The translations under genes were made by a program, and so were the position numbers. The notes beneath the pieces are model-generated. The model worked only from the letters and a program-made list of their open reading frames with translations, was not told where the DNA came from and did not search any database. From the NCBI RefSeq assembly GCF_020164485.1, contig NZ_JAIQZA010000040.1, positions 1-34,522 on the forward strand: a DNA stretch of 34,522 bases, given 5' to 3'. Source of the DNA: Salegentibacter tibetensis. GTDB lineage: Bacteria; Bacteroidota; Bacteroidia; Flavobacteriales; Flavobacteriaceae. The first letter of the stretch is position 1. Each line of letters starts with the position of its first letter. Positions 30,074 through 32,553 of this stretch are shown here, piece after piece.

Positions 30074-30568
30074 TTGAAAAAAATACTTTTGCTAAGTGAT
30101 ACCCACAGCCATATTGACGAAAGAATTCTGCATTATGCCGGGGAATCCGATGAGATATGGCACGCCGGTGATATTGGCAATACCGATGTTTCAGATGAAT
30201 TAAAGAAAATAAAACCCTTAAGGGCAGTCTACGGAAATATTGACGATGCAGAAATAAGAAAAGAATTCCCGCTTCACCAGCGTTTTACATGTGAAGGAGT
30301 AGATGTTTGGATTACCCATATTGGGGGTTACCCGGGAAAATATTCCCCGGCCATACGGGAACAGATAAAACAGGATCCCCCAAAACTTTTTATTAGCGGG
30401 CATTCCCATATTCTAAAAGTAATGAACGATAAAAATTTGAGCTTACTTCACATGAATCCCGGTGCGGCCGGTAAGCAGGGTTTTCATAAGAAACGGACTA
30501 TGCTTCGGTTTAAAATTGAAAATAAAAATATTTCTGACCTGGAGGTGATAGAATTGAAGGGGAAGTAG
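30074..30568 (+). CDS. YfcE/MJ0936-type metallophosphodiesterase
   Basis: A small cytosolic metal-dependent phosphodiesterase. The two-metal site is intact: D9 and H11 (LSDTHSH), D33 (HAGDIGN), N56 (GNIDD), H82 (THIGG), H110 and H112 (SGHSHI). The 164 residues fit the family. The start is TTG 30074, which places MKKILLLSDTH exactly as in homologues. The natural substrate of this branch is unknown, and cyclic nucleotides or model phosphodiesters are typical in vitro substrates. The 3' side runs straight into CAGT repeats with no terminator visible. Confidence 0.93.
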   Translation: MKKILLLSDTHSHIDERILHYAGESDEIWHAGDIGNTDVSDELKKIKPLRAVYGNIDDAEIRKEFPLHQRFTCEGVDVWITHIGGYPGKYSPAIREQIKQDPPKLFISGHSHILKVMNDKNLSLLHMNPGAAGKQGFHKKRTMLRFKIENKNISDLEVIELKGK

Positions 30569-30684
30569 GCAGTTTTTCAGTTGGCAGTAGGCAGTCTCAG
30601 GTATCAGTTGGCAGTCTCAGTATGCAGTCTCAGTTTTCAGTGGGCAGTCGCAGTTTTCAGTGGGCAGTCGCAGTAGGCAATATG
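30569..30684. repeat. Array of short CAGT / GGCAGT repeats
   Basis: About a dozen copies of CAGT occur, mostly as GGCAGT, TCTCAGT and TTTTCAGT, with the 20-bp unit CAGTTTTCAGTGGGCAGTCG-like appearing twice in tandem (around 30632-30672). Similar intergenic CAGT/GGCAGT arrays are common in Flavobacteriia genomes. No coding potential is seen. Confidence 0.8.
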
Positions 30685-31210
30685 CAGTTCGAAACTCCTC
30701 GTTCATTGCGAAGGCACGACTGAAGCAATCTTTTTTAATTTCCTCAAAAATCTAAAACCTAAAGATTACAACGCTCCTGCGTGGTTCGTAACGACGAAAA
30801 AATCAAGATTCACAAAACATTCGTGTATTCGTGGCAATGTGGAAAAGTGAGCAACCTCCGTTTTCAGTTCTCAGTAGGCAGTTCGAAACTCCTCGTCATT
30901 GCGGAGGCACGACTGAAGCAATCTGTTTTAATTCTACGAAAAATCTCAAATTTAAAGATTACCACGCTCCTGCGTCGCTCGTCGTGAGGGAAAGAACCAA
31001 GGTTCACAAAACATTCGTGTATTCGTGGCAATGTGGAAAAGTGAGCAATCTCCGTTTTCAGTTCTCAGTAGGCAGTTCTAAACTCCTCGTCATTGCGGAG
31101 GCACGACTGAAGCAATCTGTTCTAATTCCACTAAAAATTTCTAATCCCCACACTCCTGCGTCGCTCGTAAAAAGATACAAATCCTAAAAAATTCGTGTAT
31201 TCGTAGCTGG
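30685..31210. repeat. 194-bp composite tandem repeat, about 2.7 copies
   Basis: Copies start at 30685, 30879 and 31073 with CAGTTCGAAACTCCTCG (third copy TTCTAAACT). Each holds, in order, a CATTGCGGAGGCACGACTGA then AGCAATCT element with ATTGC/GCAAT ends, a GCTCCTGCGT segment, ATTCGTGTATTCGTGGC, and TTTTCAGTTCTCAGTAGG. The ATTCGTGTATTCGT motif recurs at 30819, 31013 and 31191 (spacing 194 and 178 bp). The third copy has lost part of the middle and the end. Open frames across it are by-products of the repeat and not genes. Similar CATTGCG...GCAAT elements are widely dispersed in bacterial genomes. Confidence 0.9.
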
Positions 31211-31222
31211 CAAAACTTATAA

Positions 31223-31882
31223 ATCGGGTAGGAGAAACGGGATTAATTCCCGTTTCGACCTCCCACACCACCGTACGTACGGTTCTCGTATACGGCGGTT
31301 CCCAGCTTGACATCCTTTTAGATGTGTAAGATGTTGTTTTCAGCTATCCCTTTAAATAATTATCACTCTTACCTATTCTTCGGATTCCGTCCTATTTTTA
31401 TGGTAAGGAGCCTCTAACTGAGCATCTGATATCATTGGTTTATCAGGTAACATTCATTTACTATCTTACTGCAAGGTTCAGCCATTCGCTATCTTGTGAG
31501 TCCTCCACATTTCTATTTGTGGCTCGATTCCGATAACTACTATGGCGTCTGCTGACTTCTCACGACTACTGTTGTCCGTGCTTCTCACACTGTTTCCGTA
31601 CGTCCGTAAGATCTCCCGTGGTAAGACATATAACTTTCATTCCACTTACCCACACCATTTACACTCCAATTTCCGTGTAGCTTTAGGGCTTCGTTGTGTG
31701 TTGCAAACTCACCCCAATTGGATATGCCTGATGATGTTCGTGTTCCTCGCATCGGAATTTTGCCTCCAGCTTCCTTCAGATTCCACCTCGCGATGGACAC
31801 CTTTGCTATTGGCTAATGGTAGGTAACTACAAACCCCCATAACGGACTCCCACCGTCGAGCTATATGCCATGCACGGCACAC
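31223..31882 (-). mobile_element. Group IIC intron, ribozyme without reverse transcriptase
   Basis: On the minus strand the sequence follows the bacterial group IIC ribozyme plan known from the Oceanobacillus iheyensis intron. Its 5' end is GTGTGCCGTGCATGGC; domain I blocks are GGTGGGAGTCC, GGTGTCC, GTGGAATCTGAAGGAAGC, GAGGAACACGAAC and TGAGTTTGCA, followed by AGAAGTCAGCAGACGCCATAG. Domain V is GAACCGCCGTATACGAGAAC then CGTACGTACGGTGGTG, with the class C triad CGC; domain VI ends in CCTACCCGAT at 31223. Only about 660 nt separate the ends and no RT domains are encoded, so mobility would need an enzyme from elsewhere. The 5' boundary could be 31882-31886 because of a GT run. A hairpin terminator lies just upstream, the known target of this class. 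Confidence 0.9.
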
Positions 31883-31888
31883 ACACAA

Positions 31889-31916
31889 AAAACCCGAAGC
31901 TTTCACTTCGGGTTTT
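31889..31916 (-). terminator. Intrinsic terminator of the DUF4293 gene and intron insertion site
   Basis: An 11-bp stem, AAAACCCGAAG/CTTCGGGTTTT, encloses a 6-nt loop. On the minus strand it is followed by a T run that leads directly into the group IIC intron. It starts 29 bp past the DUF4293 stop. Confidence 0.88.
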
Positions 31917-31945: not shown

Positions 31946-32356
31946 TTATCGTAATCGGTCCACAGATTTTACGAGATCTTCGTCCTTTTTAATGGCCTTA
32001 TTGGCCAAAACAAGAAAAACGATAGAAATGATTGGAAGAAACATCCCAATACCCTTCTCTGAAATATCCATTTCTCCAGGTACACTTAGCGACCAATAAA
32101 CAAACACTCCTAGTAAAAAAAAGTTTAATAAGATATTTAGACGCCCCAATACAAATTGAAGCTTTCTGTTTTTGAACATAAAAATACTCGCCAAAGATAA
32201 TAAAGCTGAAGCGAGAAATGCAATAAAAACCGTAAGATAATCTTGCGCATACATCGCCACTCCTTCTGAATTTTCCCAAAGTGAGAAAACGAAAATAAGT
32301 CCGCCACTAATTATGGCAGCGATAAGTAAATATACTGTTTGTATTCTTTGTAGCAT
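31946..32356 (-). CDS. DUF4293 four-helix membrane protein
   Basis: A Bacteroidota-specific inner-membrane protein of unknown function. From ATG 32356 it reads MLQRIQTVYLLIAAIISGGL, the usual start of the family; a longer frame to 32464 adds 36 residues without resemblance. Four hydrophobic helices are seen (about 8-27, 47-65, 72-92, 105-122), followed by a charged C-terminal tail (KAIKKDEDLVKSVDRLR). At 136 residues it is typical. It is divergent from rho, a neighbourhood I recall as common in flavobacteria, and ends in a strong terminator. Confidence 0.88.
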   Translation of the reverse strand: MLQRIQTVYLLIAAIISGGLIFVFSLWENSEGVAMYAQDYLTVFIAFLASALLSLASIFMFKNRKLQFVLGRLNILLNFFLLGVFVYWSLSVPGEMDISEKGIGMFLPIISIVFLVLANKAIKKDEDLVKSVDRLR

Positions 32357-32378
32357 AACTTCTGGTGGAATTCGCGAA

Positions 32379-32386
32379 CAAAAATA
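32379..32386 (-). promoter_or_regulatory. Putative -7 promoter element of the DUF4293 gene
   Basis: The minus strand reads TATTTTTG, an exact match to TAnnTTTG, ending 22 bp before the ATG at 32356. Its position supports the shorter start, since a start at 32464 would place this element inside the gene. Confidence 0.5.
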
Positions 32387-32553
32387 AAGATTCTTTTTAG
32401 AAATGCTATTTAAAATATTAAAATAAAGTTGTATACTTGCAGGAACATTTCGTAACCAATTCAAAACAGGTTACTTAAGTCTCCAAATTTTTTTCGATTC
32501 TTCCTCGAGAAGTTTAACAATCAATCCAAACACAAATTTATTCTTAATTATTC

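Follow-up and report, generated by a model that had tools for sequence, protein, structure and literature searches.

The window, the whole 34,522-nt stretch of Salegentibacter tibetensis DNA analyzed here (contig NZ_JAIQZA010000040.1), contains a structurally complete group IIC intron that encodes no reverse transcriptase (RT) and is predicted to splice. We consider it likely that this intron, which has kept the D4a hairpin of its domain 4 (D4), represents a form that is moved in trans by the RTs of other IIC introns and whose D4 is carried on several ribozyme backbones. The intron and its domains were assigned as follows:

31223..31882, minus strand: group IIC intron without RT, 660 nt (Rfam matches, empty homologous sites and alignment to RT-bearing relatives)
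31626..31797, minus strand: part of D1 and the following ribozyme core (RF02001, whole model, 131.3 bits, E 4.6e-27)
31694..31702, minus strand: D1d loop AACACACAA with the EBS1 candidate (position from comparing 25 introns)
31537..31561, minus strand: conserved stretch of D3 (within the RF01998 match)
31267..31299, minus strand: D5 (RF00029 and fold)
31223..31266, minus strand: D6, with the bulged A at 31229, the seventh base from the 3' end (fold)

The intron begins with GTGTGCCGTGC at 31882 and ends with CCTACCCGAT at 31223. In a covariance-model search of the minus strand against Rfam, RF02001, RF01998 and RF00029 all exceeded their gathering thresholds and followed one another in this order between 31797 and 31223, so that the D1-D4 core is present. 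RF01998 matched at 31579-31481 (43.4 bits, E 8.4e-05), while RF00029, the D5/D6 family, matched at 31300-31223 (43.9 bits against a gathering threshold of 40, E 1.3e-05). Together with the terminator site, these D1-D3 and D5/D6 matches bear out the class IIC assignment of the original prediction. Its claim that the RT is absent also held, as no RT frame was found in the intron and the longest listed frame inside it, of 94 aa, lies on the opposite strand. The extent first proposed, 31223..31916, was correct at its lower end but not at its upper end, since 31914-31891 form the stem-loop of a terminator and the intron proper covers 31882-31223.

Folding revealed regular D5 and D6 domains. The 90-nt D5/D6 segment reached -40.2 kcal/mol (z -4.2), a value equaled by 0 of 200 shuffles, and the fold of the whole intron (z -4.1) was better than 20 of 20 shuffles. 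CGC is the D5 triad of class IIC, and the D5 of the window reads ACCGCC, as in its aligned IIC kin. A decayed ribozyme that has lost splicing appears improbable: drift would be tolerated at this intergenic site, and the EBS1 loop is shifted by one relative to the loops of other introns, but the RF02001 match spans the whole model, D5 is regular and free of the extra base present in the RT-bearing relatives L038 and L040, and D6 retains its bulged A.

The insertion site comprises the following features:

31946..32464, minus strand: DUF4293 gene upstream of the intron (PF14126, 114.9 bits)
31887..31914, minus strand: intrinsic terminator, with its stem-loop at 31914-31891 and T tract at 31892-31887 (read directly)
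31883..31888, minus strand: IBS1 candidate TTGTGT, the last six bases of the 5' exon (6 contiguous bases pair with the D1d loop)

The 5' exon ends in the DUF4293 terminator and the intron starts 8 nt past the terminator stem, which agrees with the predicted location right behind an intrinsic terminator. A simple terminator scan gave no entry for the DUF4293 terminator; its assignment rests on the directly read stem, loop and T6, and the stem and T6 are repeated in 13 sister sequences. The end of the DUF4293 gene was located in 14 of the 15 Salegentibacter genomes, the missing one being 61% complete. No intron follows the T tract in 10 of the 14 (sister species), and a IIC intron lies within one or two nt of the same place in the other four, the window's included. 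At the three other occupied sites, the intron sequence breaks off at a contig end, some 125 to 345 nt in. Compared with the window, these sites are 97% identical in their exons and 82-86% identical in their introns, suggesting that gene and intron did not simply diverge in step. In the exon tree, the occupied genomes as one clade gave a p-AU of 0.081, which does not separate one insertion from several. Just downstream of the intron, at window positions 30684-31146, lies a direct repeat of 194 bp in about 2.4 copies (89% matches), followed by shorter GCAGT-rich repeats at 30564-30679; several sister species have phrases resembling these repeats downstream of their empty site.

Alignment with the full-length RT-bearing relatives L039 (1,906 nt) and L040 (1,903 nt) extended along D1-D3 and D5-D6 and revealed no large ribozyme deletion, the RT body being the sole missing part. 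The RT of L039 scored 440 bits to a chain of 7uim, 403 to the GsI-IIC RT and 155 to LtrA, with the match starting at residue 46, and these scores place the RTs of the kin introns with the IIC kind. We take 7uim to be the structure of PMC10190682. The window retains the stretch that precedes RT residue 46, in which we identified the following elements:

31304..31481, minus strand: RT-less D4, 178 nt, common to introns of S. salinarum and P. psychrovividus (local alignment)
31366..31410, minus strand: D4a hairpin, the presumed maturase-binding element (standard pairs, and compensatory changes relative to RT-bearing introns)
31373..31435, minus strand: RT-start remnant of 20 codons in the RT frame and a stop (alignable to the start of the L002 RT)

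The intron is thus not stripped to its ribozyme, as had been proposed, having kept both a D4a hairpin and the first codons of the lost RT. The fold of 31360-31420 shows D4a with a z of only -1.2, which is unremarkable by energy alone; the hairpin was recognized by comparison. For this purpose, the stem arms were set by hand because MAFFT alignments shifted the register of the stem and left L125 and L126 unusable, and the count leaves out L119, L121, L122, L125, L126 and the duplicate L038b. In the nine introns compared (three RT-less and six RT-bearing), 70 of the 72 cells of the eight-pair outer stem are standard pairs, and at six of the eight pairs both bases differ between the RT-less and the RT-bearing introns. 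The six distinct pairs of arms scored 7.83 of 8 with their own partners and 5.10 on average when swapped, although the top score of swapped arms, reached between near-identical RT-less ones, was also 8 of 8. These compensatory changes indicate that the RNA, rather than the reading frame, was kept. D4a is the maturase-binding hairpin of IIC introns, and in this intron it would presumably bind an RT as well.

The same RT-less D4 is known from four copies in three species. Apart from the window, it was found in S. salinarum (DSM 23400; L037, 666 nt) and in the P. psychrovividus plasmids pPP7 and pPP2, behind different terminators. L037 directly follows a second IIC intron, ahead of whose 3' end RT sequence can be read. 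The 5' start of L037 is GTGCCC as against GTGTGCCC in its kin; judging by these letters, the S. salinarum copy may be damaged. Direct tandems of IIC introns, each starting at the end of the previous one, were observed at L038 (1115-2261, then 2262 on), at L039 (774-2679, then 2680 on) and on the minus strand of L037, and the first copy of the L038 tandem is without the front half of its RT.

Local alignment of the D4s scored 192 for the window and S. salinarum (shuffle maximum 37), 92 for the window and Persicobacter (34) and 78 for S. salinarum and Persicobacter (31). Against 12 D4s of RT-bearing introns, the best scores were 58 for the window, 63 for S. salinarum and 38 for Persicobacter. 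The backbones follow a different pattern. In D1-D3, the window is nearest to Salegentibacter RT-bearing introns, with 82% identity to L040 (79-82% to the nearest RT-bearing ribozymes), the S. salinarum copy falls with RT-bearing introns from a different family (L117, 82% identity, with a support of only 68/77), and the Persicobacter copy falls with RT-bearing introns of its own genus (92-93%; L112/L125 92%). In the D4 tree, the window and S. salinarum copies group together (96/91), and so do all three RT-less introns (79/93). The test groups were chosen after inspection, and with the p-values accordingly serving as a guide, D1-D3 rejected both a single RT-less clade (p-AU 8.6e-36) and a grouping of the window with the S. 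salinarum copy (4.6e-06), whereas D4 rejected the window with Salegentibacter RT-bearing introns (9.2e-22) and the S. salinarum copy with L117/L119 (5.6e-06). On D4, a grouping of the Persicobacter copy with its backbone kin was not rejected (p-AU 0.236), and it is therefore the alignment scores that link this D4 to the other RT-less ones. D5-D6 likewise point to a mosaic origin, as the S. salinarum copy is 99% identical to the RT-bearing L040/L038 and 90% to L117, its nearest relative in D1-D3; the Persicobacter copy is 94-97% identical to its own RT-bearing introns in this region. Judged by their sequences, the introns of the three species seem to form a small non-autonomous IIC intron family of mosaic make-up, whose RT-less D4 is, on the alignment evidence, spread over Flavobacteriia and Cytophagia.

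The likeness of the D4s might also have arisen through separate RT losses, with the constraint on D4a making independently deleted D4s alike and no RT-less ancestor in common. RT loss does recur in IIC introns, as in the first copy of L038 and in introns of Bacillus smithii and E. coli plasmids, and the core ATAGGACGGAATCCGAA is also present in RT-bearing introns of the genome G591 and of three viral contigs. We nevertheless regard this account as very improbable, since the stem letters CUC/GAG and UUACY/GGUAA occur in none of the RT-bearing introns compared, and the likeness extends over about 112 nt of D4 between the window and Persicobacter and runs across the deletion joint between the window and S. 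salinarum.

Database searches returned few further copies. A D4-D6 query, which scored no more than two candidates in each genome and may have missed some, matched 42 of 397 Flavobacteriaceae genomes, and the matches listed were D5/D6 stretches save for the own genome and one 33-nt stretch of the D4 core. With D4 only, 3 of the 397 genomes matched; besides the own genome, these were stretches of 33 and 31 nt without the intron motifs looked for, except one stray 8-mer. The pattern CATAANAATAGGRCGGAAYCCGA, which would miss Persicobacter-type copies, was found besides the window in one stretch of an 84,980-species collection (S. salinarum) and in none of the viral contigs. The core ATAGGACGGAATCCGAA occurred in two of 395 phylum genomes, the own genome and G591 (two RT-bearing copies), and in five viral contigs, of which three carry the RT-bearing introns mentioned above and two have no group II match. 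Within the genus, TAGGRCGGAAYCCGA was found at six places in 3 of 15 genomes, two of the six being RT-less, and L040 was missed by one base. The RT-less signature CTTACN{4,9}TAGGACGGAATCC was present in one of 395 class genomes, the own one. A viral contig with this signature was dismissed as a chance match, as it lies in coding sequence and has no Rfam group II match. Phage records gave 6 matches out of 50,697, all partial, and 427 plasmid records matched the window intron, none over 80%; the D4a query matched only two of 72,556 plasmid records, both from Persicobacter. The RT-less D4 family may have more members than were recovered here.

Evidence for movement came from the two Persicobacter RT-less copies, which are identical at 649 of 650 columns, while the similarity of their 200-nt flanks (about 50 and 48%) is at the level of shuffled DNA. 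This combination indicates that the RT-less form itself was copied recently. An intact RT-bearing IIC intron is present on pPP5 of the same P. psychrovividus strain, and the family is probably moved in trans by IIC RTs of this kind. Exon recognition was evaluated in the 25 introns with a readable exon and loop, in which EBS1/IBS1 runs averaged 4.68 as against 3.73 when permuted (2 of 5,000 permutations as high). The loop of the window pairs best with its own exon (6, and at most 5 with other exons). Its 5' exon, however, pairs equally well or better with the loops of several other introns, in runs of up to 8, and the EBS1/IBS1 evidence is therefore weak for this single copy.

An intact RT of a related intron in the same genome, as found for the P. 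psychrovividus copies, was not found in the draft assembly of the window. The original prediction suggested that an intron RT elsewhere in the genome may move the intron. A relative with 75% identical DNA does exist, the IIC intron of contig C103, which is the sole close one with an RT in this assembly, but its RT is interrupted near residue 371 of 470, and no RT of the own genome is evident as the mover. The interrupting sequence is IS-like: 122 nt of it recur with 100% identity within two bases of four contig ends, that of C103 included. Searches of the assembly with RVT_1 (three places) and with a IIC protein query (two) revealed neither an intact IIC RT nor a further piece of the C103 RT. 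In S. salinarum, intron 5' ends lie at contig edges, and multi-copy RT-bearing introns hidden in assembly gaps would be expected to leave the same trace here; no intron 5' ends were found at contig edges in the own assembly.

The window copy may thus be stranded today, and we propose trans movement for the family rather than for this copy at present. As a full account, a stranded relic seems unlikely. The RT would then have been lost after insertion here, or the intron would have arrived RT-less long ago, and it would be immobile, at most self-splicing and of no consequence behind a terminator. The interrupted C103 RT, the intergenic site and the 79-82% D1-D3 identity to the nearest RT-bearing ribozymes, which speaks against a recent origin, all fit such a relic, but the same RT-less D4 elsewhere and the two fresh Persicobacter copies show that the RT-less form has been copied. 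The two readings are compatible, as the relic can hold for the window copy while mobilization in trans holds for the family.

Other RT-related elements were also observed in the own genome. Contig C109 (L046:2124-2722) carries a second RT-less group II intron of another kind (RF01999 98.4 bits, RF00029 57.1, with about 400 nt between them), and an RT-bearing relative of it, whose frame opens late, lies on C138 (L003). On C137 (L005:1012-2790), a 593-aa reverse transcriptase matches the PADLOC defence model RT_UG39 with 629.8 bits and is adjoined by an HNH/HIT-like frame.

Several known introns resemble the family described here. The RT-bearing IIC introns L039 and L040 of Salegentibacter and L125 of Persicobacter have the same domains and terminator sites as the RT-less introns, but differ from them in that their D4 encodes an RT of some 460-470 aa and in the letters of their D4a stem. 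The plasmid introns L113 (B. smithii) and L114 (E. coli) have IIC domains by Rfam with the RT missing or reduced, as in the window, although the remains of their D4 are unlike that of the window by inspection, pointing to separate losses. L113 occupies positions 1937-2576 of its plasmid, and L114 lies at about 1880-2592, between the bcsB and bcsC genes.

The TeI3 introns of Thermosynechococcus elongatus belong to class IIB. The ORF-less TeI3 introns have the RT body deleted and DIVa kept, with identical break-points in 17 of 17 introns; assays in E. coli showed their mobilization by RTs from related introns, and EcI5 is named as the closest relative (PMC2882425). The window intron is similar in that its RT body is deleted and D4a kept. 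However, the TeI3 introns all lie in one genome and derive from one ancestral intron, whereas the present introns are of class IIC, occupy terminator sites and have a D4 found across orders on different backbones. The principle of an RT-less intron moved in trans is already known from Thermosynechococcus, and what is new here is class C, the spread across orders and the mosaic of D4 and backbone. A trans-acting RT was also proposed for three ORF-less introns of a Listeria phage, as it is here for the family of the window; these belong to one phage and share 40-50% identity, and the available excerpt of that report does not mention D4 sharing. More generally, RT-less group II introns are described as seldom found in bacteria and almost always accompanied by a related RT (PMC4424553), and a 2022 survey pipeline places RT-less introns in a separate class and confirms that class C introns favor terminators (PMC8919778). 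Among the papers listed by our literature search, none dealt with group II introns of Salegentibacter or Persicobacter, and none referred in its title or the start of its abstract to a D4 common to different backbones.

In the trans-mobilized explanation that we favor, an ancestor of the window intron would have encoded an RT and lost the RT body from D4 while D4a was kept. Transcripts reading past the terminator would fold into the ribozyme, and a IIC RT from another intron in the same cell would hold D4a and aid splicing. The resulting RNP would insert the intron behind terminators through reverse splicing and cDNA synthesis. The RT-less D4 would have spread among Bacteroidota onto several IIC backbones, giving rise to a mosaic family either through exchange of D4 or through overwriting of the flanking domains by resident introns. 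Template switching or DNA recombination within conserved flanking sequence may have joined it to local backbones. A bolder version, which we offer tentatively as possible but somewhat doubtful, is that of a horizontally spread, SINE-like parasite of IIC introns, in which an RT-less D4 with a maturase handle passes between unrelated backbones by RT template switching or recombination within conserved flanks, each freeloader wearing the ribozyme known to the local RT.

If the favored explanation is correct, these introns would constitute a class C family in which members from different bacterial orders carry the same RT-less D4 on different backbones, and D4 would be an exchangeable part of the intron. 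The family would further provide a small natural system for learning which features of an RNA a maturase requires for splicing and moving it, with a bearing on how splicing proteins and intron RNAs became separate.
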